Program-made: the position numbers and the translations under genes
Assembly (NCBI GenBank): GCA_000018565.1
Contig: CP000875.1
Coordinates: 5,967,199 to 6,031,198 of the forward strand
From: Herpetosiphon aurantiacus DSM 785
Lineage (GTDB): Bacteria > Chloroflexota > Chloroflexia > Chloroflexales > Herpetosiphonaceae
Direction: 5' to 3'
Length of the DNA stretch: 64,000 nt
Shown here: one piece after another, positions 2,057-56,548 of the stretch
Layout of the letters: every line of letters begins with the position of its first letter
Position numbering within the stretch: position 1 is the first letter of the stretch
The notes under the pieces: generated by a model
What the model saw: only the letters and a program-made list of their open reading frames with translations
Told to the model about the DNA's origin: nothing
The model's database searches: none

Positions 2057-4129
2057 ATGACAACGATTGCCCTTGATCAGCAGATTATTCATGCGGTTTG
2101 CCCCCACGATTGCCCCGATACCTGCTCGATGCTTGTAACCGTGCAGGATGGTAAGGCGATTAAGATTCAGGGCAACCCTGAGCACCCTATAACCAATGGT
2201 TTTTTGTGCACCAAAGTCTCGCGCTATGTTGAGCGTACCTACCACCAAGGCCGGTTGTTGTATCCGGCCAAGCGGGTTGGTCCCAAGGGTGCAGGCCAAT
2301 TCGAACGGATCTCGTGGGACGAAGCCTTAACAACCATCGCCGAATGTTTGCAAGCAATCAGCACTAGCCATGGCCCGCAATCAATTTTGCCCTACTCCTA
2401 TGCTGGCACTATGGGTTTGCTGCATTATGGCTCGATGGATCGACGCTTTTTCCATCGTTTGGGCGCTTCATTGCTCGACCGCACGATTTGTGCCAGCGCT
2501 GGGGCAACTGGCTATCGCTATACGGTTGGCGCGAGTGTTGGCACTGACCCCGAGGCCTATGTTGATGCCAAATTAATTATTTTGTGGGGAACCAACACAC
2601 TCACGTCGAATGTGCACTTGTGGACCTTCATCAAGGCGGCACGTAAAGCTGGCGCACGGGTGATTGCGATCGATCCTTGGCGTTCGCGCACTGCCGCCCA
2701 ATGCGATTGGCATATTGCACCTTTGCCAGGCACTGATGCTGCCTTGGCGCTGGGCATGATGCATATTATTTTTCGTGATGGCTTGCAGGATCAAGCCTAT
2801 CTTGATGAATATTGTCTTGGTGGCGAACAATTGCGCCAGCGCGTGCAGGAATATCCGCCAGAGCTTGTGGCCGAATTGACTGGTTTGGATGTCGCAACGA
2901 TTGAGCAATTGGCCCACGAATATGCTACGACTGCACCCGCTGCGATTCGGATTAATTATGGCTTGCAACGCCACGCTGGCGGCGGCATGGCCGTGCGTAC
3001 TTTGGCTTGTTTGCCTGCGGTAATCGGTTCGTGGCGTGAGCGAGCAGGCGGCATTTTGCTTTCCACTAGCGGCACATTTCCAATTAATAATGCGGCCTTG
3101 GAGCGCCCTGATCTGATTCCTGCTGGCACTCGCATGATCAATATGAATCAGCTTGGTGATGCCCTGACCGAATTAAACGACCCGCCAGTGCAAGCTTTGT
3201 TTGTCTACAATTCTAATCCGGCGAGCGTGGCCCCCGATTTGGAAGCAGTCAAGCGTGGCTTGGAGCGCGAAGATTTGTTCACGGTGGTGCACGAGCAGTT
3301 TTACACCGACACGACGCGCTACGCTGATATTATTTTGCCTGCAACCACCCAACTAGAGCATGTAGATTTACATAAAGCCTATGGTCACTGGTATTTAGCT
3401 TGGAGCAACCAAGCGATTGAGCCGCTAGGCGAGGCGATTCCGAATACCGAGTTGTTTCGGCGCTTGGCGGCCAAAATGGGCTTTAGCGAGCCATGTTTTA
3501 GCGATGATGATCAAACGATCGCTCGCCAAGCACTCAATTCAAATCATCCAGCCTTGGCAGGCATTACCCTCGAACGTTTGCAAGAAGCGGGTTGGCTGCG
3601 TTTAAATGTACCAAGCAATTGGGCACCGTTTGCTGAGGGCAATTTTCTCACACCATCGGGCAAGTGCGAACTCTATTCTGAACGGATGTTGGCTGATGGT
3701 TTTGATCCATTGCCGACCTATACCGCGCCTTACGAAAGCCCAGTGACTAACCCACGTTTGGCTGAGCGCTATCCATTGACCCTAATTTCGCCGCCAGCCC
3801 ATCACTTTTTAAATAGCACCTTTGGCAATATTTTGCAGCGCTACGAAAGTGGCCCGACCCTAGAAATTAATCCACTTGATGCGATTGAGCGCAATATCGA
3901 CGATGGCGATCAAGTATTGATTCGCAACGATCGTGGCGGTTTTGTGGCAACAGCAGTGGTGACTGATCGGGTGCGGCAAGCTGTGGTGGTTGCGCCATCA
4001 ATTTGGTGGTCGGAGCTAACCGTCGATGGCCGCAACGTCAACCATACCACACCCCAAGCGCTTTCGGATATGGGCGGCGGTGCAACGTTCTACGATAATT
4101 TGGTTGAGGTTGAGCGTATTGTCAGCTAA
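2057..4129 (+). CDS. Molybdopterin-dependent oxidoreductase with an N-terminal 4Fe-4S motif
   Basis: A 690-residue member of the MopB superfamily (the DMSO reductase / formate dehydrogenase type). Near the N-terminus CPHDCPDTC plus a later Cys (FLCTKVSR) forms the [4Fe-4S] site. The central part binds the molybdopterin guanine dinucleotide, and the C-terminal domain (NPLDAIERNIDDGD onward) is the dinucleotide-binding beta-barrel. The substrate cannot be read from the sequence, and no partner electron-transfer subunit is adjacent. No TAT signal is visible, so it is probably cytoplasmic. The frame runs upstream to a TTG at 1982, but ATG 2057 begins the conserved part. The best purine-rich site (AAGGAG, 2025-2030) is far away, with a CGGG/CCCG hairpin between, so the start is uncertain. 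Confidence 0.85.
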   Translation: MTTIALDQQIIHAVCPHDCPDTCSMLVTVQDGKAIKIQGNPEHPITNGFLCTKVSRYVERTYHQGRLLYPAKRVGPKGAGQFERISWDEALTTIAECLQAISTSHGPQSILPYSYAGTMGLLHYGSMDRRFFHRLGASLLDRTICASAGATGYRYTVGASVGTDPEAYVDAKLIILWGTNTLTSNVHLWTFIKAARKAGARVIAIDPWRSRTAAQCDWHIAPLPGTDAALALGMMHIIFRDGLQDQAYLDEYCLGGEQLRQRVQEYPPELVAELTGLDVATIEQLAHEYATTAPAAIRINYGLQRHAGGGMAVRTLACLPAVIGSWRERAGGILLSTSGTFPINNAALERPDLIPAGTRMINMNQLGDALTELNDPPVQALFVYNSNPASVAPDLEAVKRGLEREDLFTVVHEQFYTDTTRYADIILPATTQLEHVDLHKAYGHWYLAWSNQAIEPLGEAIPNTELFRRLAAKMGFSEPCFSDDDQTIARQALNSNHPALAGITLERLQEAGWLRLNVPSNWAPFAEGNFLTPSGKCELYSERMLADGFDPLPTYTAPYESPVTNPRLAERYPLTLISPPAHHFLNSTFGNILQRYESGPTLEINPLDAIERNIDDGDQVLIRNDRGGFVATAVVTDRVRQAVVVAPSIWWSELTVDGRNVNHTTPQALSDMGGGATFYDNLVEVERIVS

Positions 4130-4600: not shown

Positions 4601-5995
4601 ATGAGTACTCAAGCTATTCGCTTTGATTACAACAATGTGATGGCCGATGTGATTGGTGAACATGGATTGACTGAGGCTGAAATTGAGGCAGCATTGCCCC
4701 ATGCCGCCGCCGCGATTGAAGCTGTCTATGCTCAACGCGCCGATCTCGGCTGGATGGATTTGCCCTATCAAGATACCAGTGAAATTATTGCTCAAGCCCA
4801 AGCTGTGCGTGCTCGCGCCGACACGTTGGTGGTTTTAGGCATTGGTGGCTCAGCGCTTGGCCCAATCGCAACCCAAACGGCTCTCCAGCACCCATTTTAT
4901 AATAATTTGCCGCGTGAATTGCGCCGTGGCCCCACGTTGTTTGTACCCGATAATGTTGACCCTGAATTAAACGCTGGCTTGCTCGATGTGCTTGATCTTG
5001 AGCGCACCGTGTTCAATGTGATCACCAAATCGGGCACGACTGCCGAAACCATGGCATCCTTCATTTACTTCCGCGAAGCCTTGGCCAAACGCCTTGGTAA
5101 GGATAAATTAGTTGATCACTTGGTGTTGACGACAGACCCTAAGAAGGGAGCCTTGCGCCAAATTGCTGATCGCGAGGGCTACCCAACCTTGCCCTTACCA
5201 GCCAGCGTTGGTGGCCGCTTCTCGGAACTTTGCGCAGTTGGCTTGTTCCCAGCGGCTGTTACTGGCATCGATATTGATGAATTGTTGGCGGGGGCAGCCT
5301 ATGCTGACAAACGTAGCCAAGAGCGCGACCCGCGCAAAAATCCCGCCGCAATGTGTGCATTAATCCAATTCTTGCTCGATAAGAAGGGTAAGAATATGGT
5401 TGTGATGATGCCCTATGCTCAGCGTTTACGCGATGTGGCTGATTGGTTCCGCCAATTGTGGGCTGAAAGTTTGGGCAAGCGGGTTGATCGGGCTGGCAAT
5501 GTGGTCAATGTTGGCCCTACACCAATCAAATCGTTGGGCGCGACCGACCAACATTCGCAAGTGCAACTCTATGCTGAAGGCCCATTCGATAAATTGATGC
5601 ACTTCTTGTTTGTTGAGCAGTTCCAAGTGGAAGCACCGTTGAGCAATGCCTACCCCGATATCAACGAGCTTTCGTATCTTGATGGCAAGAGCTTTAGCCA
5701 ATTGCTCAAAGCCGAGGGCGAAGCAACCCAGTTGGCGATTGCCGAAGCTGGTCGCCCCAGCATTGCCCATTATTTCCCAGCAGTCAATGCCTTTACGCTT
5801 GGGCAATTCTACTACATGCTCGAAATGCAAACCGCCTTTGCTGGCGAGTTGTACAACATCAATGCTTTTGATCAGCCTGGAGTTGAGGCTGGTAAAATCG
5901 CTACCTACGCCTTGATGGGTCGCGAAGGCTACGATGCTCGCCGCCACGAAATTGAACAAGCTCGTGGCCGCAGCCGTAGCGAATTTATCATCTAA
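4601..5995 (+). CDS. pgi: Glucose-6-phosphate isomerase
   Basis: This enzyme interconverts glucose-6-phosphate and fructose-6-phosphate in glycolysis and gluconeogenesis. At 464 residues it has the shorter Bacillus/archaeal-type bacterial length. Visible motifs are the sugar-phosphate SIS segments VLGIGGSALGP and TKSGTTAETM and the family signature VGGRFSELCAVGLFPA. The frame extends further upstream, but ATG 4601 has AAGGAG at an appropriate distance and starts the homologous region. A strong terminator follows. Confidence 0.95.
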   Translation: MSTQAIRFDYNNVMADVIGEHGLTEAEIEAALPHAAAAIEAVYAQRADLGWMDLPYQDTSEIIAQAQAVRARADTLVVLGIGGSALGPIATQTALQHPFYNNLPRELRRGPTLFVPDNVDPELNAGLLDVLDLERTVFNVITKSGTTAETMASFIYFREALAKRLGKDKLVDHLVLTTDPKKGALRQIADREGYPTLPLPASVGGRFSELCAVGLFPAAVTGIDIDELLAGAAYADKRSQERDPRKNPAAMCALIQFLLDKKGKNMVVMMPYAQRLRDVADWFRQLWAESLGKRVDRAGNVVNVGPTPIKSLGATDQHSQVQLYAEGPFDKLMHFLFVEQFQVEAPLSNAYPDINELSYLDGKSFSQLLKAEGEATQLAIAEAGRPSIAHYFPAVNAFTLGQFYYMLEMQTAFAGELYNINAFDQPGVEAGKIATYALMGREGYDARRHEIEQARGRSRSEFII

Positions 5996-6010
5996 ACCCA
6001 ATTGATCAGA

Positions 6011-6041
6011 CCTGCCATGCTCAAACCATGGCAGGTTTTTT
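6011..6041 (+). terminator. Rho-independent terminator of pgi
   Basis: CCTGCCATG (6011-6019) pairs perfectly with CATGGCAGG (6027-6035) around a 7-nt loop and is followed by TTTTTT. It lies 15 nt after the pgi stop and between convergent genes. Confidence 0.9.
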
Positions 6042-6066
6042 ACTCCTTACGCCCGATGCTTGAATC

Positions 6067-7632
6067 CTACAACTTTGAAAGAATCGAGGCCAAACGTCGT
6101 CGGAAGGGTAGATCAAACAACGAGCGCAGTATTTTGGGTGCATTCAACTGAAGCTGATCATGCTCTTGCTGCTTGGCAGCTTGATAGGCCAAGAGTGCAC
6201 CGTTTTCAGGGTTTTCGGCTAAACTTTGTTCAACCACCGCCAAAGCCACCTCGGCATCTTGCAAATCGCCCAGATAATCTTGAGCGGTGACTAATTGCTC
6301 AAGCAGCGATTCGTGTTCTTCGGCCAAGGCCGCGCTAAATAGCTCAAGCGTATAGCGCAGATGCTTAATTTCAATCCGCAGGCGGTGCAAACTCTCCACT
6401 GGTGCATCATTTAAGATCACATCGTAGGCGCGAATGCGCTCGTAGTGGCTCCAAACCGTGCTGCCAACCCAATGTCGCACCAAACTACGCTCGACTCGGC
6501 CCTCGCTAGTATCAGCCTCGCGCACTCCAGCGCCGGCAGTCAGTACAAAGTCGGTCAAACGCTGGGCAAATTTACTGGCTTTGCGGCTTTCCAAAAAGCT
6601 CAATAATTCAACCCGTGCCGCATCTCGCTGCTGGCTGATCGACTCGATCAAGGGTGCATAGCCTGCTTGTTCTTGCTCAGGCAAGTCGGCGCGATGATCA
6701 TCAAGTTTACCCAAAAACACATCGGCATCGCGCACCGCGCCCAAAACGCTGGCCCATTGGCGCAAACCTCGCCGCAATTTGGCGACAATTTCTGGTTCGT
6801 AGAGGGTTTCACCCAAAATCGCCAAAATTGTGCGCAAGCGGCGGGTTGCCACGCGCATCTGATGCACACCCTCGGAATCATCGCCAACTACCGCGATTGG
6901 CCAAGCTTTGTGTAATTTCAGCACATGTTTGGCCAAAATTGAGCGCCCTGCTTCGGCCAAATTGTTAGTTGACTCCATCGGTGTGCGATCAACCGCTTGT
7001 TTGAGTTGTTCGAGATGCTCGGCATGGTTCAAAAGCAGCATTCCGCGCTGGCTCTTGGAGCGGGTTTCTGGCTCCAGCGGCAGTTGCGTGGTGTAAATCG
7101 AGGCCAACACTGCGAGATCAGCAGCAGTGCCTACGCCTTTGAGTTCGATTTCAATCTCGTGGAACGGCAACGAACGTTCGCCACTGACCAAAGAGCCACG
7201 ATCAAGTGCCAATTCGGCGATCTCTTGGCCATCGCGCTCGATCCGCCAGAGCCGTCGTCGATTGCGCACGGTCAGCATTGGCAATAATGGCTCGTCGCCA
7301 ATTACTGCCTGCAGTGGCTCGCGAATATCGCTGGGCCACAATTCAGGATGATCGCGCACATTCGGCGTAATTTCATGCTCAAATTCTTGGCGTTGATGGA
7401 CAGCACCTTTAACTTTGCCCGGCAGTTTCAAGGTTAGCCATAATTGTTGGTCAATCCGGCGGATACGTAGAGTGTAGCGCTGCTGATCGAGTTGGCGGCT
7501 GGCGGTATCCAAAATGCTATCGCGAATTTCGACGGTTACCCGCTCGCCAAGGCTAAACGGCGCGATATTAATGGCTTCAAGTTGTTTGGGGCGAATCGGT
7601 TGCGTTGCGCGGTATTTGGCTTCTTGTTCCAT
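6067..7632 (-). CDS. CYTH-CHAD domain protein
   Basis: A 521-residue two-domain protein. Residues 1 to about 200 form a CYTH / triphosphate tunnel domain, opening with the ExExK signature (EQEAKYR, Glu2, Glu4, Lys6) and alternating basic and acidic strands. From about 230 to 510 lies a CHAD domain, a His- and Arg-rich helical bundle (HQMRVATRRLRTIL; HRLRIEIKHLRYTLE). The family binds or hydrolyses polyphosphate or triphosphate-bearing molecules. CYTH-CHAD fusions are known and are linked to polyphosphate granules, so a role in polyphosphate metabolism is likely but not proven. The gene stands alone, convergent with pgi. Confidence 0.9.
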   Translation of the reverse strand: MEQEAKYRATQPIRPKQLEAINIAPFSLGERVTVEIRDSILDTASRQLDQQRYTLRIRRIDQQLWLTLKLPGKVKGAVHQRQEFEHEITPNVRDHPELWPSDIREPLQAVIGDEPLLPMLTVRNRRRLWRIERDGQEIAELALDRGSLVSGERSLPFHEIEIELKGVGTAADLAVLASIYTTQLPLEPETRSKSQRGMLLLNHAEHLEQLKQAVDRTPMESTNNLAEAGRSILAKHVLKLHKAWPIAVVGDDSEGVHQMRVATRRLRTILAILGETLYEPEIVAKLRRGLRQWASVLGAVRDADVFLGKLDDHRADLPEQEQAGYAPLIESISQQRDAARVELLSFLESRKASKFAQRLTDFVLTAGAGVREADTSEGRVERSLVRHWVGSTVWSHYERIRAYDVILNDAPVESLHRLRIEIKHLRYTLELFSAALAEEHESLLEQLVTAQDYLGDLQDAEVALAVVEQSLAENPENGALLAYQAAKQQEHDQLQLNAPKILRSLFDLPFRRRLASILSKL

Positions 7633-10907: not shown

Positions 10908-11984
10908 TTAGGGCTTGATGCCTACTGCTTCACAAGCGGGTACTAATTTGACTGGGCAAAGTTGTTGCGGCGACCAAAAATTATCGCTCACAATGGTATC
11001 TTTGACCGTGGCTTTGGTGACCACAACTGGATTGAGCAAAATCGCTGGAACATTCATAATTCCGTTTGCCACCGTGCGATTGTTGACCAAGTTGGTTGGA
11101 ATGGGCTGACCAACCATCAAGGCATGAGCGATTTTGGCGGCAGCCTCGGCTTGAGGCCGAATTGCCTTATACACCGTCATATGTTGCTCACCAGTGATGA
11201 TCCGCTGCACGGCGGTGAGTTCAGCATCTTGGCCAGTAATCAAGGGCAATGGCTCAAGCTTGGCTGCTTGGACAGCGACTAATGCACCACCAGCAGTACC
11301 ATCATTGGCCGCATAAATTCCGTCGATCTGATCGCCAGCTGCCAGCATTCGTTCAACATATTGCTGCGCCTCGGCGGGCTTCCAATCGGGCGTATCAAAC
11401 TCGCCAATAATCGTCAATTTGCCAGCAGCGACTAATGGATCAAAAACCTTTTTGGCTCCACGCTTGTACTCGCTGGCATTGTTATCGCTCAGCGAGCCGT
11501 GAAGCAGCAGAATTTTGGGATTACTCAGGCCACGCGCGGCAAGGCCGGCAATCAAGCTTTCGGCCTGTAATTCGCCGATTTTTTGGTTATCAAACGAGAT
11601 ATAGGCCGTAACGCCAGGCGAATTAAGAATCAGCCGATCATAGGCCACAACTGGAATCGATTGCTCAGCAGCATGATCAGCAATCGTGCGAGCATCGACC
11701 GAATCGACTGGATCAAGCACCAACACCCGTGCCCCAGCCTTGATCGCCTCTTCGGCCTGCTGTTGTTGCAAGCTTGGGTTATTTTGGGCGTTGTAGTACA
11801 ACACCTGACAATCGTTGCAGAGCAAATTCATTTCGCGCTCGAACCATGGCCGATCCACAGTTTCATAGCGTTTGGTGGTTTGCTCTGGCAACAACAGCGC
11901 AATAATTTTGGCCTTGGGCGCTTCCGCTCCACCACATCCAACTAGCACCAGCAAAAGTACCAATAGCACAAACCTGCGTCGCAT
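10908..11984 (-). CDS. Sugar-binding lipoprotein of the XylF/RbsB type
   Basis: A 358-residue periplasmic-binding protein type 1 lipoprotein. The lipobox is LVLVGC (Cys17). The two-lobed sugar-binding fold is evident from ARVLVLDPVDSVDARTIADHA, IPVVAYDRLI, KILLLHGSLSDNNASEYKRG and YAANDGTAGGALVA. The DNNA and YDRLI stretches are most like xylose-binding XylF. The family feeds an ABC sugar importer, but no permease or ATPase gene is next to it, so it is an orphan here. A single-domain sugar-type ABC ATPase fused to a kinase occurs at 46933; any link is speculation. Confidence 0.88.
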   Translation of the reverse strand: MRRRFVLLVLLLVLVGCGGAEAPKAKIIALLLPEQTTKRYETVDRPWFEREMNLLCNDCQVLYYNAQNNPSLQQQQAEEAIKAGARVLVLDPVDSVDARTIADHAAEQSIPVVAYDRLILNSPGVTAYISFDNQKIGELQAESLIAGLAARGLSNPKILLLHGSLSDNNASEYKRGAKKVFDPLVAAGKLTIIGEFDTPDWKPAEAQQYVERMLAAGDQIDGIYAANDGTAGGALVAVQAAKLEPLPLITGQDAELTAVQRIITGEQHMTVYKAIRPQAEAAAKIAHALMVGQPIPTNLVNNRTVANGIMNVPAILLNPVVVTKATVKDTIVSDNFWSPQQLCPVKLVPACEAVGIKP

Positions 11985-45372: not shown

Positions 45373-45623
45373 TGCTCTCCTCGAATGCTACTAATGTTTG
45401 ATTCGGGCTAAGAGTACAACATCAAGATCAATATCAATAATATACATACAAATCTCGTTCATTGCGCACCTCAGTGGTAGAGATCTATTGATAGTATAGC
45501 GAATGTGGCTAGAGGGGTGGCAGGTATTTTAAGGCAGGTTGCCTTGACTGGCTCGCTTGCCAAAGCACCCTGAAATCGCCGTGTGAAATATGATACAATT
45601 GAAGCGACGGACTGCATTGAGTC

Positions 45624-45656
45624 AGCCCGCCACCAAAACCAACGGGGGGCTTTTTT
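45624..45656 (+). promoter_or_regulatory. Attenuator-like hairpin directly before mqnC
   Basis: AGCCCGCC (45624-45631) pairs with GGGGGGCT (45644-45651) with one mismatch, then runs into TTTTTT. The T-run ends 4 nt before the mqnC ATG, and the G-run is the only Shine-Dalgarno-like sequence available. The hairpin would therefore block both transcription and translation unless an alternative fold forms. A preceding small hairpin (GACT/AGTC near 45609-45623) could be part of such a switch. No known riboswitch class is recognised. Confidence 0.5.
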
Positions 45657-45660
45657 AATT

Positions 45661-46860
45661 ATGAATGTACAATCGCTTCTTGAAAAAGCAGTCAATGGTG
45701 AGCGTCTTTCGGCTGAGGAAGGGCTGTTTTTGTATCGTGAAGCTGACCTGCTGGATTTAGGCATGGCTGCTGATGCGATTCGCCAACGGCTTGTGCCCGG
45801 AAACTTAGTGACGTATCTTGTTGATCGCAACGTCAATTATAGTAATGTTTGCACGACCAATTGCCAATTCTGTGGTTTTTATCGCCCATTGGGTCACCCA
45901 GAATCCTATGTGCAAACCTACGAAGAAATTGGTGCTCGTTTAGCCGAGCTTGTCGAATATGGTGGAACCCGCGTGCTGATGCAGGGTGGCCATCATCCTG
46001 AATTGCGGCTTTCGTGGTATACCGGCTTACTGAGCTATTTGCGCGAACATTATCCTAGCATCGAGCTTGATTGCTTCTCGCCTTCAGAAATCGATAATCT
46101 GGCTAAGGTCGAGAACATGAGCATTCGCGAGGTGTTGATTGCGCTGAAGGAAGCTGGCTTGGCTGGCGTGCCTGGCGGCGGCGCTGAAATTCTCGATGAT
46201 GAAGTGCGCCAACGGGTTAGCCCACTCAAGCAAGATGCTGCTGGTTGGCTCGAAGTTCAGGGTACAGCGCAATCGCTGGGCATGGCCACCACCGCAACTA
46301 TGGTGATTGGCTTCGGCGAGTCGCTTGAACAACGTATGAATCACCTTATGAAATTGCGTGATTTGCAGGATGTTTCGTTGCGCGAGTATAACAATGGCTT
46401 TATTGCCTTTATTTCGTGGACCGTCCAGAAATCGGAGTTGACCTCGTTGGGTCGCTCGAAGTTCTCGGACGACTACGGGGCAACCGCTGCCGAATATTTG
46501 CGCCACACCGCGCTTGCCCGAATTATGCTCGATAACTTTAATCATATTCAGGCTTCATGGGTAACTCAAGGACCAAAGATTGGCCAAGTTTCGCTGAAGT
46601 TTGGCATCGATGATTTTGGCTCGACCATGCTTGAGGAAAATGTGGTTTCCAACGCCGCTCACGACACCTACCAATGTATGGGCGAACGCGAAATCCACGG
46701 TTTTATTCGCGATGCTGGCTTTATTCCAGCCAAACGCGATACCCACTACAACTTGATTCAAGCTTTTGAAGACCCCAAAGATAGCGAAAACGTGCCATCG
46801 ATGGGCATCAAACAGCCACGTCAAGCCAAGCAGGTCGAAATTCCATTAATGGTTAAATAG
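45661..46860 (+). CDS. mqnC: Cyclic dehypoxanthinyl futalosine synthase
   Basis: 399 residues; radical SAM enzyme of the futalosine route to menaquinone that cyclises dehypoxanthine futalosine. The [4Fe-4S] motif CxxxCxxC is at Cys64, Cys68 and Cys71 (VCTTNCQFCGF). GGTRVLMQGGHHPEL, GLAGVPGGGAEIL and FISWTVQKSELT fit MqnC rather than MqnE. No other mqn gene is in the window. The ATG follows an attenuator-like hairpin by 4 nt. Confidence 0.92.
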   Translation: MNVQSLLEKAVNGERLSAEEGLFLYREADLLDLGMAADAIRQRLVPGNLVTYLVDRNVNYSNVCTTNCQFCGFYRPLGHPESYVQTYEEIGARLAELVEYGGTRVLMQGGHHPELRLSWYTGLLSYLREHYPSIELDCFSPSEIDNLAKVENMSIREVLIALKEAGLAGVPGGGAEILDDEVRQRVSPLKQDAAGWLEVQGTAQSLGMATTATMVIGFGESLEQRMNHLMKLRDLQDVSLREYNNGFIAFISWTVQKSELTSLGRSKFSDDYGATAAEYLRHTALARIMLDNFNHIQASWVTQGPKIGQVSLKFGIDDFGSTMLEENVVSNAAHDTYQCMGEREIHGFIRDAGFIPAKRDTHYNLIQAFEDPKDSENVPSMGIKQPRQAKQVEIPLMVK

Positions 46861-46932
46861 GTTTTTCGGCGAACGCTATGGATGCTTGGTCGTCCATAGC
46901 GTTTGTATTTAAGCAACGAATGGCTGTGTGCG

Positions 46933-48504
46933 ATGTTTACCTGCCGCCATATTTCCAAGCAATTTGGTACGCTGCCCGTGATCGATGAGGTCAGCTTTGA
47001 TCTTGCGCCTGGCGAGGTGGTGGGCTTGACTGGCCAAAGTGGTGCTGGTAAATCGGTATTGGTGCGTTTATTGGCGGGCTTGGAAAAACCCGATACTGGG
47101 GTGATTTCGACCCGTGGCCAATTAATTAACTCGACCCAAAGTGCCTTTCGGGCTGGGTTGGCGGTCATCCATCAGCAGCCAGTGCTAGTTGAGCATTTGG
47201 ATGTGGCGAGTGCGATTTTTTTGGGTCACGAGGTTGGGCGCGGTTGGCTGGGTTGGTTATCGTTGCCCAATCAGCGCCATCACGACACCATGGCGCGGCA
47301 AATTCTAGCCCAACTTGGTTTAGAGTTGCCATCGTTGCGCACCTTAGTTCGTAATTTATCGAGCGAACAACGCCAGATGTTGGCGATTGCGCAGGTGCTG
47401 ATCCGCAAGCCGCAAGTTGTGATTATCGATGAGCCAACGCCGCTACTGCGCTACGAATATCAACAAACGCTGCTCGAATTGATTCGCGAATGGCAAGCGC
47501 AAGGTGTGGCGGTGCTGTTTAGCAGCCAAAATCTTGATCATCTATTTGCAGTGAGCAATCGGATTTTGGTGTTGCGGCGCGGGCGCTTTGTGTTCGAGGC
47601 GGCCACCGAAAAAACCTCGCGTGAGGAAGTGGTGCGGGCACAAATTGGAGCGCGAGATCAGCAACATCTCACACCAATTATTTGGGCCTTGGAAAATTAC
47701 CATCGTGCCAGCCAACAAGCCGAGGCCTTGCGCCAAAGCCAATCCAGCCTAGAGCACGATTTAGCTAGCCAGAATCAGCTTAATCGCCAATTGATTGGCC
47801 AACTCGATCAACAGGTCAGTAATCTTGATCGCGCCAATGCGGCCTTGCAAGAAGCCCAACGTCGTTTGCTTTCCGAGCGCGAAGGTGAGCGCAAAGTGCT
47901 TGCCCGCGAGCTGCACGACCAAGTTATTCAAGATTTGGTGAGCCTCAATTATGATATTGATAATTTGCGCAGCCAAATTGACGACCCTGAGCAAGCCAGC
48001 CTTGGGCTTGACGATTTGCGCGATAACATTCGCCAATTGGTGAGCACAGTACGGGCAATTTGTGGTAACTTGCGCCCGCCAACCATCGATAGCCTTGGGG
48101 TCAATGCGGCAATTCAATCGTTTGTGCGCGATTGGAGCAGCCGCAGCGGCATTGAAGTGCAGCTTGATCTCGACGACGATTTAGAGCGCTTGCCCGAAAT
48201 GCTCGAAATTTCGGCCTTTCGCATGATTCAAGAGGGCTTGAGCAATGTGCGTAAACATGCCCAAGCCACCAAAGTTGGCATTAGCCTGCGTACCACCGCC
48301 CGCCGCACTCTGCTCCTGACGATTGCCGACAACGGGCGCGGCTTGCAAGCTGAGATTAATTTGGCGGCGCTGGCGAATGCAGGCCACTATGGGTTGCTGG
48401 GCATGAGCGAACGGGTGGCGCTGGTTGGCGGGCGTTTCCGCGTGCACAATCGGGCTGGCGGCGGTCTCATCCTCGAAATCGAAATTCCCTACCAACCACT
48501 TTAA
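46933..48504 (+). CDS. Fusion of a sugar-type ABC ATPase domain with a NarL-family sensor histidine kinase
   Basis: 523 residues from ATG 46933 (the frame runs back to a TTG at 46903). Residues 1 to about 240 form a complete ABC ATPase half like the first half of RbsA/XylG: Walker A GQSGAGKS (34-41), Q-loop, signature LSSEQ (142-146) and Walker B VVIIDEP (162-168). The switch position reads SSQNLD, so the H-loop His is replaced. A coiled coil (about 260-320) links to a HisKA_3 kinase: ELHDQVIQDL with His328, LRPPTIDSLG, NVRKHAQA and DNGRG. No sensor, membrane helix, permease or response regulator is adjacent. The ABC part may have become a cytoplasmic sensor. Confidence 0.88.
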   Translation: MFTCRHISKQFGTLPVIDEVSFDLAPGEVVGLTGQSGAGKSVLVRLLAGLEKPDTGVISTRGQLINSTQSAFRAGLAVIHQQPVLVEHLDVASAIFLGHEVGRGWLGWLSLPNQRHHDTMARQILAQLGLELPSLRTLVRNLSSEQRQMLAIAQVLIRKPQVVIIDEPTPLLRYEYQQTLLELIREWQAQGVAVLFSSQNLDHLFAVSNRILVLRRGRFVFEAATEKTSREEVVRAQIGARDQQHLTPIIWALENYHRASQQAEALRQSQSSLEHDLASQNQLNRQLIGQLDQQVSNLDRANAALQEAQRRLLSEREGERKVLARELHDQVIQDLVSLNYDIDNLRSQIDDPEQASLGLDDLRDNIRQLVSTVRAICGNLRPPTIDSLGVNAAIQSFVRDWSSRSGIEVQLDLDDDLERLPEMLEISAFRMIQEGLSNVRKHAQATKVGISLRTTARRTLLLTIADNGRGLQAEINLAALANAGHYGLLGMSERVALVGGRFRVHNRAGGGLILEIEIPYQPL

Positions 48505-49215
48505 CTAATCGCGATAGCCTTGATCGATCGGCAAATTGGGCTGATGGGCTGCCTGCACCGCCAAGCGATCGCAACGCTCGTTATCCTTGACTCCAGCGTG
48601 GCCAGGCACTTGCACCCATTCAATTGTGTGGCCTTGAGCTAGCTCCAACAATTGTTGCCAAAGATCCGGATTTTTGACTGGGCCAGTTGTTGTGCGCCAG
48701 CCATTCTTGCTCCAACGCTCGGCCCAACCTTTGTGCATGCCATTGATCACATAGGCCGAATCGCTATAAACCACTACCTTGCTCGGCTGGCTCAAGGCTT
48801 GCAGGCCGGTAATCACGCCCATCAACTCCATGCGGTTGTTGGTGGTGCGAGCAAAGCCGCCCGTTAATTCGCGCATCTCCGAGCCAGAACGCAATACCAC
48901 GCCATAACCGCCTGGTCCAGGATTGCCATCGCTGCCGCCATCGCTGAACAACACCACTTTGCCTTCGTCCAAAGCTTTTTGCGGATCAATTGCTAAGCTG
49001 ACTGGAGTGAGATCAACGTTTTGGGGAATGCGTTGAGGCGCACGGCCCGCCCGTTCGCGATACCATGCCTCGGCATCAGCAAAGCTAGCAAACCCCTTAA
49101 AAACCGCCTGATCGATGCCCTTGACTTGGGCTTCAGCACCATCGTTGCCAAACCATTCGTTGTAGATTCCAGGTTGGCGACCCTTGACCACCGCATAAAA
49201 TTTTCGTTTTGCCAT
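48505..49215 (-). CDS. rnhA: Ribonuclease HI with an N-terminal RNA/DNA-hybrid binding domain
   Basis: 236 residues; degrades the RNA strand of RNA:DNA hybrids. Residues 1 to about 50 are the hybrid-binding (Cauli_VI-like) domain of eukaryotic-type RNase H1 (FYAVVKGRQPGIYNEW, GFASFADAEAWY). The catalytic domain has acidic residues in FSDGGSDGNPGPGG, NNRMELMGVI, VVYSDSAYVINGM and the C-terminal GVKDNERCDRLA. It is convergent with the kinase fusion, with the two stop codons adjacent. Confidence 0.94.
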   Translation of the reverse strand: MAKRKFYAVVKGRQPGIYNEWFGNDGAEAQVKGIDQAVFKGFASFADAEAWYRERAGRAPQRIPQNVDLTPVSLAIDPQKALDEGKVVLFSDGGSDGNPGPGGYGVVLRSGSEMRELTGGFARTTNNRMELMGVITGLQALSQPSKVVVYSDSAYVINGMHKGWAERWSKNGWRTTTGPVKNPDLWQQLLELAQGHTIEWVQVPGHAGVKDNERCDRLAVQAAHQPNLPIDQGYRD

Positions 49216-49894: not shown

Positions 49895-50899
49895 TTAGGC
49901 TCTTACCCGCTGCTCAACACTCGATTCGCGCACAATCAGCTCGCCTTGCAAAATGATTTTGCGGGTTGGCCGTTGTGGGTCTGCCACCCGTTGCAAGACT
50001 AATTCCGTCGCTGAGCGGCCAATTTCATCGGTTGGTTGGGCTAAAACAGTTATCGCTGGCTGCACCAAACTGGCCCAAGCTGTATCATCGAAACCAACCA
50101 AGCCAATTTGCTCAGGCATCTGCAAACGCCGTTCACGAATGGCTTGAAGTGCGCCAGCCGTCAGTAAGCTATTGCTAGTAAAAATGGCCTCTGGTGGTTG
50201 CGGCAAACGCAAGAGATCCAAGGTTGTGCTATGGCCAGCTTCGCTGCGTGGTCGCACAAAGCGCAAATATTCGGGCTGCATGCTGATGCCTGCATCGCGC
50301 AAGGCATCTTCAAAGCCGCGTTGGCGTTCGCGCCCAGTCGTGCTGGCCTCACCAAAAATCGCCCCAATCCGCCGATAGCCTTGATTGATCAGATGTTGGG
50401 CCAAGGTATAACCAGCGCTCACATTATCCAACAGCACGGCATCAACATCGCCACTGCGCAACGAACGGTCGATTAATACGGTCGGAAAGCTCAAATTCAA
50501 TTCATGAAAGCGATTGAGGGTTTGTAAGGTGGGCGAGAAAATCACCCCAGCCACTTGCTCGTCGCCCATCAGTTGCAAATACAGCAATTCTTTTTCGGGA
50601 TTTTCATCGGTGTTGCAGAGCAGCACATTGTAGCCATGGGCATAGGCCGTATCTTCGACGGCACGGCTAACGGCGGTAAAAAAGGGATTACGAATATCTG
50701 AAACGATCAAGCCCAAGGTGTTGGATTGCTGCGAACGCAAATTGCGGGCAATCAAATTAGGCCGATATTCGAGCTGAGCCACCGCCGCTAACACCCGTTC
50801 GCGCACCTCTTGCCGCACATGCGGATGATTGGCCAAAACCCGCGAAACTGTCGCCGTTGAAACATTGGCTGCTTTGGCAACATCTTTGATGCTAGACAT
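49895..50899 (-). CDS. LacI-family transcription regulator, probably of the fructose PTS operon
   Basis: 334 residues. The N-terminal helix-turn-helix (IKDVAKAANVSTATVSRVL) and hinge (YRPNLIARNLRSQQ) are followed by the periplasmic-binding-like sensor domain (TLGLIVSDIRNPFF, VLIDRSL, GFDDTAWASLVQPAITV). ATG 50899 has GGGGAG upstream; the earlier ATG at 50953 gives an atypical N-terminus. The gene is divergent from the PTS operon. Two near-identical LacI-type palindromes lie in the shared 313-bp spacer, strongly suggesting control of fructose uptake and of its own gene. Confidence 0.92.
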   Translation of the reverse strand: MSSIKDVAKAANVSTATVSRVLANHPHVRQEVRERVLAAVAQLEYRPNLIARNLRSQQSNTLGLIVSDIRNPFFTAVSRAVEDTAYAHGYNVLLCNTDENPEKELLYLQLMGDEQVAGVIFSPTLQTLNRFHELNLSFPTVLIDRSLRSGDVDAVLLDNVSAGYTLAQHLINQGYRRIGAIFGEASTTGRERQRGFEDALRDAGISMQPEYLRFVRPRSEAGHSTTLDLLRLPQPPEAIFTSNSLLTAGALQAIRERRLQMPEQIGLVGFDDTAWASLVQPAITVLAQPTDEIGRSATELVLQRVADPQRPTRKIILQGELIVRESSVEQRVRA

Positions 50900-50988
50900 A
50901 GCGAGACTCCCCTTGGCAGTAGTCGATTGCAGTGCTGAAAACGATTGCGGCATTATAGCAGATTAGTGCGCTTTTTCTTAGGATGTAT

Positions 50989-51212: not shown

Positions 51213-53690
51213 GTGATCGAGCTACAGCAGCGTCATATCCAACTCAAGAGTCAGCCCGCCAACAAGCAAGCGGCAATTCAACAAGCAGGCCAGCTTCTGG
51301 TTGCCAATGGGCAGATCGAGTCTGGCTATATTCAAAGTATGCTCCAACGCGAAGCCCTTTCGAATACTTATCTTGGCAATGGCATCGCAATTCCTCATGG
51401 TTTGCCCGAAGCCCGCGATCTGATTCGCCAAACCGGAATTGTGGTACTGCAAGTGCCCAACGGGGTGCAGTGGAATCCAGGTGAAACTGTGCACTTAATC
51501 GTTGGCATCGCCGCTCGCTCCGATGAACATATTGCAATTTTGCGCCAACTTACCCGCGTGCTTGGCGATAAAACCTTAGTTGACCAACTCACCCACACCA
51601 CCAATCCTGATGATCTGATTCGCGCATTGACTGGCGCTGAAACGGCTCCCGCAGCCTCAGCGGCTCCAGCTATCAGTGTGGCGGTTGCCAGTGACCAGCC
51701 CTTTTTTGAAACCAAAGTTTTGAATCCCACTGGCTTTCATGCTCGCCCGGCCACAACCTTTGTTGATTGCGCTAAGCGTTTTCAAGCGGAAGTGCGCATA
51801 CGTTATGGCTCGCGTGAGGCCAATGGCAAAAGCTTAATCTCTATTTTGCAACTTGGCATTCCCCATGGCGCGACGATTCAGGTCACGGCTCAAGGTGCTG
51901 ATGCCGCTGCGGCGCTACGTGGTTTACAACAGGCATTGGCCCAAGGCTTAGCTGATGAAACAGCGGAAACGCTTCCAACACGCGCTGCAGTCGATGTGCG
52001 CTGGACACCCAAGGCCGTTGAGCAGACGATCAATGGCATTAGCGCCGCGCCAGGCTTGGCGATTGGCTTGCTCCGCCGTTATAGCCATAGCGAGTTGGTG
52101 ATCGAAGATCGGCCAAGTGACCCGATGGTTGAGGTCAATCGCTTTGAGCTGGCATTGGCCGCTGCCCAAGCCGAGCTGTCAACGCTCTATGATGAAGTGC
52201 AAGCGCGAATTGGCTCAGGCAAGGCGGCGATTTTCCGCGTGCATAGCGAAATGTTGAGCGATACCAGCCTTGTGCAACAAACCGTCTCGTTGTTATTTGA
52301 AAAACATAGCGCTGAATGGGCTTGGCATCAGGTGATCAGCGGGCGCGTGGCCCAAATCGAAAAACTTGACGATCAAGTGCTAGCTGGCCGTGCGGTTGAT
52401 CTGAGTGATGTTGGTCAGCGGGTGTTACGCCAGTTGATCGGCGGCGATCATCAACGGCCTTTGAATGCAGCCACGCCAGTGATTATTTTGGCCGACGATT
52501 TGACTCCCTCAGATACCGCCGCCTTTGACCCCGACACTATTTTGGGCTTTGGCACAGTACGCGGCGGCCCAACTTCGCACACCGCAATTTTAGCGCGTTC
52601 GCTGGGAATTCCAGCAATCGTTGGGGCTGGCGAAGGCTTGTTGAATTTGCCCGAAGAAGCAATTGCAATTCTCGATGGCTACAACGGCAAATTGTATCTC
52701 AACCCAAGTAGTGCCGATATCGAGGCCGCGACCAACTTGCAAGCCGAATTGGCCGAACAACACGAGCGTGCTCAAGCTACGCGCTTCGAGCCAGCCCAAA
52801 CCAGCGATGGCCATCGAATCGAAATTGCTGCCAACATCAATCGCGTTGCTGATGCGAGTGTTGCCGCCGCTGCGGGAGCCGAAGGCGTGGGCTTGATGCG
52901 CACCGAATTTCTGTTCCTTGAGCGCGATAGTGCTCCCAGCGAGGAAGAACAATTCGAGGCCTATCGCGATATGGTGCAAGCGATGGCGGGCCACTCGGTG
53001 ATTATTCGCACGCTGGATATTGGCGGCGATAAAGTTGTGCCCTATCTCGATTTGCCCAAAGAAGATAATTCGTTCTTGGGCATTCGCGGGATTCGACTCT
53101 GCCTAGCCCGACCTGAATTATTTATCCCACAGCTCCGTGCGATTTATCGCGCCGCCGCTTTTGGGCCGCTCAAAATTATGTTCCCAATGATTGCCACCTT
53201 GGAAGATTGGTACGCCGCCCGCGATTTGGCTGAGCAAGTGCGCCGCGAACTCGACGCGCCTCAAGTGCCACTCGGCATTATGGTCGAAGTGCCATCGGCG
53301 GCAGTGCTCGCCGAACAATTTGCCCAAGAAGTCGATTTCTTCTCGATTGGCACCAACGATTTGACCCAATACACCCTAGCAATGGATCGTTTACACCCAC
53401 AATTAGCTAGCCAAGCCGATGGCCTGCATCCAGCGGTGCTGCGAATGATCGACCTGACCGCCCACGCCGCCAACGCCCACAACAAATGGGTTGGTGTATG
53501 TGGTGGCATTGCCGCCGATGCCCGTGGTTCCTTGATTTTGGTGGGCTTGGGCGTGCATGAACTCAGCGTCAGCGTACCAGCCATCGCCGAACTCAAAGCT
53601 GCCATTCGTCAACATAGCTTGGCCGATTTACAAGCACTCGCGCAACGTGCCTTGGCATGTCGCAGTGCTGCCGAGGTACATCAATTATGA
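51213..53690 (+). CDS. fruB: PTS fusion protein EIIA(Fru)-HPr-EI
   Basis: 825 residues carrying three soluble phosphotransferase steps in one chain. The EIIA domain (1 to about 145) has its phospho-His62 in GNGIAIPHG. A short Ala/Pro linker leads to HPr (about 165-255), phospho-His176 in NPTGFHARPA, with the Ser-containing regulatory stretch NGKSLISILQLGI. EI (about 272-825) has His456 in RGGPTSHTAILAR and the PEP-binding C-terminus (GVGLMRTEFLFLERD, VCGGIAADAR). It passes phosphate from PEP to the FruA permease. It overlaps fruK by 4 nt. The order is that of FPr-type proteins with EI added. Confidence 0.93.
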   Translation: MIELQQRHIQLKSQPANKQAAIQQAGQLLVANGQIESGYIQSMLQREALSNTYLGNGIAIPHGLPEARDLIRQTGIVVLQVPNGVQWNPGETVHLIVGIAARSDEHIAILRQLTRVLGDKTLVDQLTHTTNPDDLIRALTGAETAPAASAAPAISVAVASDQPFFETKVLNPTGFHARPATTFVDCAKRFQAEVRIRYGSREANGKSLISILQLGIPHGATIQVTAQGADAAAALRGLQQALAQGLADETAETLPTRAAVDVRWTPKAVEQTINGISAAPGLAIGLLRRYSHSELVIEDRPSDPMVEVNRFELALAAAQAELSTLYDEVQARIGSGKAAIFRVHSEMLSDTSLVQQTVSLLFEKHSAEWAWHQVISGRVAQIEKLDDQVLAGRAVDLSDVGQRVLRQLIGGDHQRPLNAATPVIILADDLTPSDTAAFDPDTILGFGTVRGGPTSHTAILARSLGIPAIVGAGEGLLNLPEEAIAILDGYNGKLYLNPSSADIEAATNLQAELAEQHERAQATRFEPAQTSDGHRIEIAANINRVADASVAAAAGAEGVGLMRTEFLFLERDSAPSEEEQFEAYRDMVQAMAGHSVIIRTLDIGGDKVVPYLDLPKEDNSFLGIRGIRLCLARPELFIPQLRAIYRAAAFGPLKIMFPMIATLEDWYAARDLAEQVRRELDAPQVPLGIMVEVPSAAVLAEQFAQEVDFFSIGTNDLTQYTLAMDRLHPQLASQADGLHPAVLRMIDLTAHAANAHNKWVGVCGGIAADARGSLILVGLGVHELSVSVPAIAELKAAIRQHSLADLQALAQRALACRSAAEVHQL

Positions 53691-54679
53691 GTATCGTTAC
53701 ATTAACGCTCAATCCCGCCATTGACCAAACGATTTTCATCAATAATTTTCAGCTGGAAACCGTCAATCGGGCCTACGATCTCAAGAGCCATGCTGGGGGC
53801 AAAGGCGTGAATGTCGCCTCGCTGTTGGCAGCCAACGGCCATAAGGTGGTGGCAACTGGCTTTTTGGGCGACCAAAACACCGAATTATTCGATAAATTGT
53901 TTGCCGAAAAACAAATCGACGACCAATTTATTCGAATTCCAGGCCAGCCACGGGTTGGCATCAAAATTAGCGATCAACAAACCCAACGTACCACGGAAAT
54001 TAATTTGCCTGGCTTGACCCCAACCAACGAGCAATTGGATGCGATTCGCGCCACAATCAAACGCTTGGCTGCTGACGATAATCAATGGTTTATTTTGGCG
54101 GGCAACGTGCCGCCAGGTATTCCCAGCACAATTTATGGTCAGCTGATCGAAATTATTCGCGCCGCAGGCAAGCAGGTTGTGTTGGATACCAGCGGCGAGG
54201 CCTTGCGCTACGGGTTGGCTGCCTCCCCAACCATCGCCAAGCCCAACCTTGCCGAACTTGAGCAATTTGTAGGCTACCCGCTGACCAGCGAACAAGCCGC
54301 CGCCAAAGCAGGCCGCGAACTGCTCAGCCATGGCATCAAACTGGTGGTAATTTCGATGGGCGAACATGGCGCACTCTTTTTGGATAACGCCCAAAGTTTG
54401 GTGGCGATTCCGCCGAGTGTGGCGGTACAAAGCACGGTCGGCGCAGGCGATGCCATGGTTTCAGGCTTGGTTGCCGCCCAAACCCAAGGGCTTGATCTTG
54501 CGGCGAGTGCCCGCTTGGCCACGGCCTTTGCTGCCGCCAAAATCACCCAGCTTGGCAGCAACTTACCCGCCGCCGAAATTGTCGAGCAGATTCGTGCTGA
54601 TGTGGTGATTCGCCCATGCAATGCGCAACTTGATGTGTTGCAACGTGGCGCGAATCAACTTAAAGGCGTTCCACTCTAA
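53687..54679 (+). CDS. fruK: 1-phosphofructokinase
   Basis: 330 residues of the PfkB family; makes fructose-1,6-bisphosphate from the fructose-1-phosphate delivered by FruA. The N-terminus is TLTLNPAIDQTI, with KSHAGGKGVNVASLLAANG (PfkB motif 1) and the C-terminal catalytic STVGAGDAMVSGLVA with the base Asp in GAGDA. ATG 53687 overlaps the stop of the PTS fusion gene (ATGA), implying coupled translation; the longer frame from 53657 is unlikely. Confidence 0.94.
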   Translation: MSIVTLTLNPAIDQTIFINNFQLETVNRAYDLKSHAGGKGVNVASLLAANGHKVVATGFLGDQNTELFDKLFAEKQIDDQFIRIPGQPRVGIKISDQQTQRTTEINLPGLTPTNEQLDAIRATIKRLAADDNQWFILAGNVPPGIPSTIYGQLIEIIRAAGKQVVLDTSGEALRYGLAASPTIAKPNLAELEQFVGYPLTSEQAAAKAGRELLSHGIKLVVISMGEHGALFLDNAQSLVAIPPSVAVQSTVGAGDAMVSGLVAAQTQGLDLAASARLATAFAAAKITQLGSNLPAAEIVEQIRADVVIRPCNAQLDVLQRGANQLKGVPL

Positions 54680-55096
54680 TTTAAGAATGAATTATGAATT
54701 ATGAGAGATGAAGGCAGAAGGCAAAATCAAAAGCCGAGTGATCAGGGGTCAGGGATCAGACGTTGAAACCGCGAAGCACACGAAGGACGCAAAGAGGGTT
54801 TTAACACAGAGGCGCAGAGGGTAAGGCTTGTTGGCTATTTGTAATGGTTCACTGGGTTGACAATGAATTGTATGCCCTCACCTCATCGCCCGCCTACGAG
54901 GCGAGGGGGAACCGATCCAACCGTGCGCCCCTCGCCCGCCGTAGTGGGAGAGGGGTCGGGGGTGAGGGAATGCTGGAACTGATTGGTAAAGGTTTTGGCT
55001 AGCGGAACATACGTGGGTTTGGCAACAGGCGCTTGACATTGAAGGGATACCGATCCCCAGCCCCTGCCCCCGAACCCTCGTTATAAGGAGCATCCC
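54680..55096. other. Gene-free spacer with repeats inside the fructose operon
   Basis: 417 bp between fruK and fruA with no reading frame of merit. It contains a GGCAGAAGGCAAAATC run (54709), a GATCAGGGGTCAGGG run (54737), a CGAAGCACACGAAGGACGC stretch (54768) and the R1 palindromic repeat (54875-54968). fruA is nevertheless in the same orientation with AAGGAG before its ATG. Confidence 0.7.
54875..54968. repeat. Dispersed GC-rich palindromic repeat R1, copy 4
   Basis: CCCTCACC start and GGGGGTGAGGG end; the left flank reads TAATGGTTCACTGG then GACAATGAATTGTAT, and the right flank AATGCTGGAACTGATTGG, both matching other copies. It lies between fruK and fruA. Confidence 0.8.
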
Positions 55097-56548
55097 ATGG
55101 CACGCATTGTTGCGATCACCTCATGTCCAACTGGTATTGCCCACACATTTATGGCCGCCGAAGGGGTTCAACGTGGCGCAGAAGCCCTTGGTCATCAGAT
55201 TAAAGTTGAAACCCAAGGTTCAGTTGGTGCGCAAAATGTGCTGACTGAGGCCGATATTCGTGAAGCCGATTTGGTGATTATCGCCGCTGATACCAAAGTT
55301 GATCTTGGTCGCTTTGTAGGCAAGCGGGTTTATGAAACCTCGACCAAAGCAGCGATTACCGATGGTCAGGGAATGGTCAAAACCGCCTTTGATCAAGCCA
55401 AAACCTATAACGCTAGCGGTTCAGCCAACCTTGCTGATACCGTCGATGATCTCAAAGCTCAACGCTCGGCCAGCCGCTCCGGTCCCTACAAACACCTAAT
55501 GACTGGGGTTTCGTATATGCTGCCGTTTGTGGTTGCAGGCGGCTTGCTGATTGCCTTGGCTTTTGCGATTGGCGGCATTTATGTATATGAAGATCAATAT
55601 GCCAACACGCTTGGTTGGTCGTTATTCCAAATTGGGGCTAAATCGGGCTTTGCGCTGATGGTGCCAATTTTGGCGGGCTTTATTGCCTTCTCAATCGCTG
55701 ATCGACCTGGCTTAGTGCCTGGAATGATTGGCGGGATGTTGGCCAGCAGCAATGGCTCCGGCTTCTTGGGTGGCATCATTGCTGGTTTTATTGCGGGCTA
55801 CGCTACCGATTGGCTGAACACCAACATTCGTTTGCCAAAAACCTTGGCTGGCCTCAAACCTGTGTTAATTCTACCGTTGCTCAGTACTGCAATCGTCGGT
55901 TTGTTGATGATTTATGTGATTGGCAAGCCCGTTAGTGCGGTTAACACCAGTTTGAATGAGTGGCTGACCGGGTTGCAAGGAACCAACGCGATTTTGCTGG
56001 GCTTGTTGCTTGGGGCAATGATGGCCTTCGATATGGGTGGGCCAGTCAACAAGGCCGCCTATACCTTTGCGGTTGGATTATTGGCTAGCAATGTGTATGC
56101 TCCAATGGCTGCCGTAATGGCTGCTGGCATGACTCCGCCGCTTGGTTTGGCCTTGGCCTCGTTACTCTTCAAAAATCGCTTTACCGCCGAAGAACAAGAA
56201 GCCGGCAAGGCAGCGGCAGTGCTTGGCATTTCGTTTATCACCGAAGGCGCAATTCCCTTCGCAGCACGCGATCCATTCCGCGTGATTCCAGCGATTATGC
56301 TTGGCTCAGCCGTTACGGGAGCACTCTCGATGAGCTTTGGGGCAACCCTGCAAGTGCCACACGGCGGAGTGTTCGTGTTGCCAATTCCCAATGCAGTTGG
56401 TAGTTTGGGCTTGTACATTGTGGCAATTTTGGTGGGCACAGTGGTGACGGCTGCCGCCTTGTATGCGCTCAAACGCCCGTTGCTGCAAACTCCCGTTACT
56501 ACTAGCGAAACCAATGCTAGTGCAACTTCAGCGGTCAGCGTGCGCTAA
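55097..56548 (+). CDS. fruA: Fructose-specific PTS permease, EIIBC
   Basis: 483 residues. The EIIB domain (1 to about 100) carries the phospho-Cys10 in [18 protein letters not shown]. After a linker, the EIIC membrane domain (about 130-465) has about nine hydrophobic segments; the family motif [14 protein letters not shown] is intact. It imports fructose with phosphorylation at C1, using phosphate from the fused EIIA-HPr-EI protein. GAP of 417 bp from fruK is unusual for this operon. A terminator and a tRNA gene follow. Confidence 0.94.

Follow-up and report, generated by a model that had tools for sequence, protein, structure and literature searches.

What does a histidine kinase sense when it has no membrane segment and no sensor domain, yet carries at its N terminus an ATPase domain of the kind found in sugar importers? 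The question is raised by a gene of Herpetosiphon aurantiacus DSM 785, whose genome comprises 6,785,430 bases in three contigs; the window, meaning the whole stretch of DNA analyzed, covers 64,000 nucleotides of it. From these letters alone, the original prediction read a single frame as a sugar-type ABC ATPase followed by a HisKA_3 kinase, and suggested that the ABC half had become a nucleotide- or transporter-sensing module or that it docks on an orphan sugar permease. The protein, designated here as ABC-HK, was compared with its relatives, with conventional sugar ATPases, and with the products of the genes around it.

A cytoplasmic kinase with an importer-type ABC domain

The frame is unbroken from an ATG at 46933 to a stop codon ending at 48504, and this start is backed by the family alignment (Table 1). 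Matches above the curated Pfam cut-offs give the domain order ABC_tran (PF00005; residues 18-169, E 9.7e-29), helical linker, HisKA_3 (E 1.9e-13), and HATPase_c (E 8.2e-9). Besides these three, no Pfam domain scored above its cut-off, and ABC-HK has no extracellular sensor of its own. The highest 19-residue hydropathy is 1.08, with no transmembrane-type segment, and none of 82 family sequences exceeds 1.9, unlike membrane kinases of the XylFII-LytS type, which have a periplasmic domain. The predicted fusion in one frame of 523 residues, the places given for Walker A (34-41), LSSEQ, DE (166-167), Gln199, His328, and DNGRG, and the absence of sensor and membrane segments all proved correct.

Table 1. 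Coordinates of ABC-HK, its domains and motifs, and a second sugar-binding protein in the window
Feature	Position	Strand	Remarks
ABC-HK gene	46933..48504	+	523 aa plus stop; ABC-domain histidine kinase, cytoplasmic
ABC ATPase-like domain, residues 1-245	46933..47667	+	nearest CUT2 sugar ATPases (AraG/XylG/YtfR first domain)
Walker A GQSGAGKS, residues 34-41	47032..47055	+	Lys in 79/82
Q-loop Gln81	47173..47175	+	kept in 76/82
Altered signature LSSEQ, residues 142-146	47356..47370	+	fourth residue Glu in 80/82
Walker B Asp166 and residue 167	47428..47433	+	Asp166 in 82/82; Glu167 in 44/82
H-loop position 199	47527..47529	+	Gln in Herpetosiphon; His in 0/82
His203	47539..47541	+	66/82; four residues (one helical turn) past H-loop position
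Helical linker, residues 246-318	47668..47886	+	TPxIWALExY start conserved
HisKA_3 domain, residues 319-383	47887..48081	+	phospho-acceptor His328 at 47914-47916
HATPase_c catalytic domain, residues 426-521	48208..48495	+	Asn438, Asp466, Gly468, Gly470
Second XylF-like sugar-binding protein	10908..11984	-	57% identical to partner-operon sugar-binding protein

The kinase half is of the HisKA_3 (NarL-type) class, with both domains, the phospho-acceptor His, an N-box, and G-boxes; His328 and the four HATPase_c residues listed in Table 1 are each present in 82/82 sequences. The kinase motifs are complete, and autophosphorylation and phosphotransfer are predicted. The linker runs from Thr-Pro 247-248 to His328, and the stretch 248-328 is 81 residues long in every one of the 82 sequences, as expected for a mechanical link. 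An AF2 model built with 46 sequences (mean pLDDT 79; pTM 0.50, single chain) predicted helices at 243-276 and 283-347 in the linker region; pLDDT was mostly above 90 in the ABC domain and lower in the linker, falling below 50 at 242-255 and 279-287. When the model was used for a fold search, the best 50 of 1795 matches were nearly all titled as ABC transporter subunits.

The nearest NCBIfam models for the ABC half are AraG (147.6 bits), XylG (140.2), and YtfR (138.9). The AraG equivalog cut-off is 689 bits, and the cut-offs of XylG, YtfR, RbsA, and other CUT2 models among the matches listed were likewise not reached. Thus, the ABC half is an ABC_tran domain closest to the CUT2 ATPases, yet single, altered, and fused to a kinase.

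The domain order was then sought across Chloroflexota, as proposed with the prediction. A scan of 84,980 species yielded 78 loci, of which 68 span both halves (L027-L094; L-numbers denote loci and G-numbers genomes, G000 being the Herpetosiphon genome of the window), six match the kinase only, and four match the ABC domain only. Both halves share one frame in 67 of the 68. All 68 are titled as Chloroflexota taxa, namely Herpetosiphon, Chloroflexus, Oscillochloris, and bins of Anaerolineae, Caldilineaceae, and Thermoflexales; other phyla were sampled via exact 8-residue patterns, so distant fusions elsewhere could be missed. In a separate set of 400 Chloroflexota genomes, which partly repeats the species scan, the kinase occurs in 26, and eight further matches (E<=1e-70) cover the ABC half only. 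In total, 94 loci spanning both halves gave 82 distinct sequences, two of them imperfect (L067, frameshifted inside the ABC half, and L087, cut at a contig end). None of 72,556 plasmid records reached 80% coverage of ABC-HK, that is, none held a full-length relative. Searches of open-access papers, judged by title and the start of the abstract, yielded no description of an ABC-HK fusion, which is no proof of absence.

In the ten loci matching one half only, the ABC half and the kinase half are never adjacent genes. With 94 loci spanning both halves, neither of the refutations named with the prediction (two genes joined by error, or halves that are always separate) stands. Loci L100 (1842-12029) and L099 (5116-11696) have an ABC gene and a kinase gene within 13 kb but several kb apart, and nothing suggests that these are the two parts of a divided ABC-HK. 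A tree of 80 sequences has two well-supported sides (midpoint root, for drawing). When compared with neighboring ATPases, 21 sampled ABC halves form one clade (support 100/99), which joins the single-domain ATPases with weak support (73/81). Two irregular frames were also observed: in Oscillochloris ZM17-4 (L078 7564-9516; L010) the kinase frame extends for about 650 residues with no stop and no Pfam match, possibly antisense to a large neighboring gene, and in L067 both ABC-HK (5941-7591) and the regulator (2756-3801) lie over two frames, the result of either frameshifting or misassembly in a bin from a metagenome.

Family-wide loss of hydrolysis residues in the ABC half

As controls, 43 CUT2-type ATPases were examined, 42 from the relatives' loci and one from a Herpetosiphon operon (L105), comprising 14 single-domain ATPases and 29 first domains of two-domain ATPases. 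The signature Gly, the Glu after Walker B, and the H-loop His are present in 43/43. This catalytic set is incomplete in the ABC-HK family: residue 167 is Glu in 44 of the 82 sequences, Asp in 34, and another residue in 4, while the H-loop position is occupied by Asp (44), Asn (12), Gln (8), Ser (6), Lys (5), Gly (4), Glu (2), or Tyr (1). Because His and Gly are intact in all partner-type ATPases, the changes belong to the ABC-HK family. Throughout the family, hydrolysis residues have been lost, whereas Walker A and the Asp of Walker B are retained; the three sequences lacking the Walker A Lys are gapped, frameshifted, or truncated.

The replaced H-loop His had been noticed correctly as Gln199; its loss is a family trait rather than a local substitution, and the conserved His203 shortly after it was overlooked; at that position, CUT2 ATPases most often carry Asp or Glu. 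Similarly, LSSEQ had been read as a plain ABC mark; it is indeed present, but is itself changed from LSGGQ. Its fourth residue corresponds to the position of the CFTR G551D change. Loss of the D-loop was considered as a further mark of the family and dropped, since Asp occurs there in 0/43 controls, the position being Gly or Ser in the 14 single ATPases and Asn in the 29 first domains.

The columns common to ABC-HK and the ATPases include an NxxxGxE stretch after the Q-loop. In solved importers, the region after the Q-loop borders the groove that receives the coupling helix. The retention of this stretch suggests that docking may persist without catalysis, although its conservation could be structural instead.

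Linkage to CUT2 importers and a REC-LuxR-REC regulator

Neighboring genes of the relatives were clustered, and the cluster representatives alone were annotated with Pfam or NCBIfam. Four types emerged: a CUT2 permease (BPD_transp_2), a sugar-binding protein (SBP; Peripla_BP_4), a CUT2 ATPase, and a REC-LuxR-REC regulator. Profiles built from the same clusters, with the ATPase profile taken from the L105 sequence, were run against all frames of the 68 loci and found a permease in 49, an SBP in 45, an ATPase in 42, the regulator in 32, and a second SBP in 14. Recounted permease figures are used because binning by score is rough (permease-B of L067 falls in bin A, and a 92-aa fragment of L076 in bin B). 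An ordinary 223-aa regulator of control locus L095 (182 bits) also exceeds the regulator threshold of 170 bits, but most family regulators score above 450 bits.

A CUT2 SBP or permease lies in 58/68 loci, and one of these or the regulator in 62/68, which answers the proposed check for conserved neighbors (permease, NarL-type regulator); in the ten control loci, which match one half only, no CUT2 SBP or permease was found. Linkage of the gene to one transporter type, the CUT2 importer, is therefore conserved, and the importer is of the xylose/multiple-monosaccharide type. The six loci with none of these neighbors are three of Herpetosiphon plus L066, L090, and L093, whose contigs start 68-155 bases ahead of the kinase frame and show none downstream. 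Only in Herpetosiphon does the ABC-HK gene look orphaned.

Two layouts recur. In the first, SBP, ATPase, permease, and kinase genes follow one another with the regulator nearby (L030, L031, L143), while in L051, L065, and L084 the same genes for the importer are found downstream or on the opposite strand. In the second, a permease (permease-B), a second SBP (SBP2), and the kinase adjoin one another, beside a full SBP-ATPase-permease-A set in L035, L037, L140, L141, and L142. SBP2 lies directly upstream of the kinase in 13 of the 14 loci that have it, and the second permease, where sequence covers it, adjoins SBP2 with no intervening ATPase gene; in L056, SBP2 precedes permease-B. Five loci had a second SBP or a bin-B permease without an ATPase, of which L033 and L076 were excluded because in each the contig starts within a permease gene. 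The other three (L036, L067, L083) encode permease, SBP, kinase, and regulator; the regulator gene lies upstream of permease-B, and the stretches examined (12.0, 7.7, and 13.6 kb) yielded no CUT2 ATPase; the L067 stretch ends just past the kinase, and its regulator is the one split over two frames.

Some relatives have unusual sugar-binding proteins. In L041 (1736-3925), L042, L069, L071, L077, L080, and L144, SBPs of about 710-780 aa lie beside ABC-HK; the L041 protein has two Peripla_BP_4 stretches in one frame, and the other six were judged by length and score; these may represent a double-headed sugar-binding protein. In L055 (7589-13556), ABC-HK and the regulator adjoin an 840-aa frame with one Peripla_BP_4 domain, beyond which lie two proteins of 273-298 aa, with no CUT2 permease in the stretch examined.

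The two regulators that were scanned each contain two Response_reg stretches and a GerE domain, and the regulator gene is on the strand opposite the kinase in 29 of 32 loci. A search with the Herpetosiphon regulator (E<=1e-55) matched 27 of the 400 genomes, including 26/26 of those with the kinase (hypergeometric 5.5e-40, kinship ignored). The sole genome with the regulator but no kinase, G024, also lacks an SBP2 match, a pattern that loss of the permease-B, SBP2, and kinase genes as one block would produce. Presence of the two genes varies within genera, but the two go together: in genus g3, both occur in G061 and G238, neither in G012 or G288, and the regulator alone in G024; genus g5 has one genome with both (G094) and three with neither (G190, G222, G370). 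The genes lie within 10 kb of each other in 18/26 genomes, are apart in six Herpetosiphon genomes (by 464 kb in the window genome, on different contigs in five), and are on different contigs in two further genomes. We infer that the REC-LuxR-REC protein is the partner regulator of ABC-HK. The Herpetosiphon SBP was matched (E<=1e-40) in only 12/27 genomes and SBP2 in 6/27; thus, the sugar input is not conserved, and the periplasmic side is more variable than the kinase-regulator pair.

In Herpetosiphon, the partner genes were located in L105 (G000:C1 5541000-5553500), 464 kb from the kinase gene, a distant set that the original prediction had missed. This operon encodes a permease (411 aa), a single-domain ATPase (263 aa) with LSGGQ and the H-loop SHN intact, an SBP (374 aa), and a divergent regulator (354 aa), and adjoins an alpha-amylase-type gene. 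The idea of docking on a sugar permease gains strong genomic support from the CUT2 SBP, ATPase, permease, and LuxR-type regulator genes beside most relatives, but the permease is no orphan, having its own ATPase, SBP, and regulator. The nearest NCBIfam models for the SBP, permease, and ATPase are xylF, GguB, and YtfR; all matches are below cut-off and do not fix the sugar. The gap between the SBP and regulator genes, searched for a candidate regulator-binding site, has weak repeats only.

No cognate regulator lies beside the Herpetosiphon ABC-HK gene itself, and that placement was rejected in favor of the distant operon. Its neighbors are mqnC (45583-46860, +; above cut-off) and RNase HI with an N-terminal extension (48505-49215, -). 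Three other Herpetosiphon species also have mqnC beside the kinase gene, and likewise a minus-strand frame downstream. Between mqnC and ABC-HK, considered as a possible co-transcribed pair, a perfect 11-base hairpin was seen by eye (46872-46882 / 46893-46903), while a consensus scan of the gap gave no promoter or terminator match. The window also encodes a second XylF-like SBP (Table 1), a possible extra input to the kinase; its 57% counterpart occurs in all six Herpetosiphon genomes searched, and the nine frames around it include no CUT2 permease or ATPase look-alike by eye. Elsewhere in the window, a fructose PTS set (51213-56548, +) comprises a fused IIA/HPr/EI-like protein (825 aa), 1-phosphofructokinase, and IIBC, together with a LacI-like regulator recognized by eye (49895-50953, -).

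A proposed docking mechanism and its relation to known systems

Because ABC-HK has no membrane segment and no other sensor domain, its input most likely arrives via the ABC half, and since this CUT2-like domain is encoded beside CUT2 permeases, docking there is the simplest reading. Genomic linkage ties the kinase to the importer system, and ABC-HK is probably a cytoplasmic kinase docked on a CUT2 permease, reporting the state of the permease to the REC-LuxR-REC regulator. The ABC domain would bind ATP, hydrolyze it poorly or not at all, and occupy the cytoplasmic face of the permease at the site of the ATPase subunit. Whether the docked ABC domains open or close would then be set by a sugar-loaded SBP and the permease. 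ABC pairs and kinase pairs have a common two-fold symmetry; with both halves expected to be two-fold dimers, this motion would be passed on as a twist or shift of the linker helices, turning autophosphorylation of His328 on or off. The regulator would receive the phosphate from His328 and in turn control the operon of the importer. In Herpetosiphon, where the kinase gene lies apart from this operon, the partners are still encoded in the genome. An ordinary ATPase is also encoded in 42/68 loci, so the permease site would be contested. For loci with permease-B and SBP2, a tentative extension is that a complete ABC importer now serves as a sugar receptor: the sugar would be presented by SBP2, permease-B would transmit a signal instead of transporting, and an ABC-HK dimer, replacing the motor, would convert ABC opening and closing into kinase switching.

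Three other readings give the ABC half a different role. It may be a soluble sensor of nucleotides or energy charge, in which binding of ATP or ADP sets the kinase and the importer is merely a regulated target. Nearly invariant Walker A and Asp166 with the hydrolysis residues gone are what a binding-only site should look like, and Herpetosiphon retains the gene without linkage. The nucleotide-sensing role first proposed is compatible with the kept Walker motifs to this extent, but leaves the conserved neighbors unexplained: a general sensor needs neither a specifically CUT2-like domain nor CUT2 genes close by, and the ATPase-free permease-SBP-kinase stretches of L036, L067, and L083 would have no rationale. 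We consider this reading unlikely.

Less likely again is a mixed dimer, in which the ABC domain pairs with the ATPase subunit of the operon and the kinase samples an importer in turnover. Such a subunit is frequently encoded nearby, in Herpetosiphon beside the permease, and a degenerate half combined with an intact one is normal in two-domain CUT2 ATPases, whose second domains have Ser and no His at the H-loop in 29/29 cases. The signature residue of an ABC domain faces the ATP site of its partner, where the Glu of ABC-HK should hinder closure of the sandwich. Kinases of the HisKA_3 class act as homodimers, which favors a symmetric pair, and the three loci without an ATPase in the stretch examined offer no subunit to pair with.

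It is very improbable that the ABC domain is still a working ATPase, with the kinase sensing its own turnover. His203, if it substitutes for the H-loop His, and Glu167 where present would make slow hydrolysis possible, but His203 is missing in 16/82 sequences, residue 167 is Asp in 34, and the signature Gly has become Glu in nearly all. Finally, the joining of two genes by a sequencing or assembly error has a negligible chance of being true and is ruled out by independent assemblies, the 82 distinct sequences sharing one linker length and the sampled ABC halves one clade.

The docked kinase favored here has parallels among transporter-coupled two-component systems. PhoR, which has no periplasmic sensory domain, has been proposed to read conformations of PstSCAB (PMC5775613). 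The PstSCAB-PhoU-PhoR-PhoB system of Escherichia coli is thus likewise one in which a kinase reads importer state without a periplasmic sensor; PhoR, however, is a separate protein that works with PhoU, whereas ABC-HK has the ABC domain within its own polypeptide and a CUT2 importer as partner. BceS differs from ABC-HK in being a membrane kinase, in having a resistance transporter as partner, and in not being known to contain an ABC domain. In BceAB-BceS, transporter and kinase form a sensory complex for which transporter activity is the cue (PMC7438565). In XylFII-LytS, a xylose-binding protein feeds a sensor kinase (PMC9769921). There, XylFII binds the periplasmic domain of LytS directly, whereas ABC-HK has no membrane segment and is of the HisKA_3 type. 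The linked SBP, ATPase, and permease proteins have ChvE, GguA, and GguB among their closest named models. In Agrobacterium, ChvE has a further role in signaling to a kinase, VirA of the ChvE-GguAB, VirA-VirG system, which is a membrane kinase with a periplasmic region; ABC-HK has neither feature. RbsA, XylG, AraG, and YtfR are nearest to the ABC half, which differs from them as a single domain with altered signature and H-loop, fused to a kinase.

To the best of our knowledge, none of the Pst-PhoR, Bce, and XylFII-LytS systems has an ABC domain in its kinase. How kinases read the state of an ABC transporter is, as far as we are aware, structurally unsettled for the Pst-PhoR and Bce-type systems, whose components are separate proteins. 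We place ABC-HK with these transporter-coupled systems, as a form with the ABC domain inside the kinase. With an importer-type ABC domain covalently joined to a kinase through a linker of constant length, and with a co-inherited regulator, the coupling step becomes open to structural and mutational study. The family also suggests that sensory input modules can arise by recruitment of ABC motor domains.
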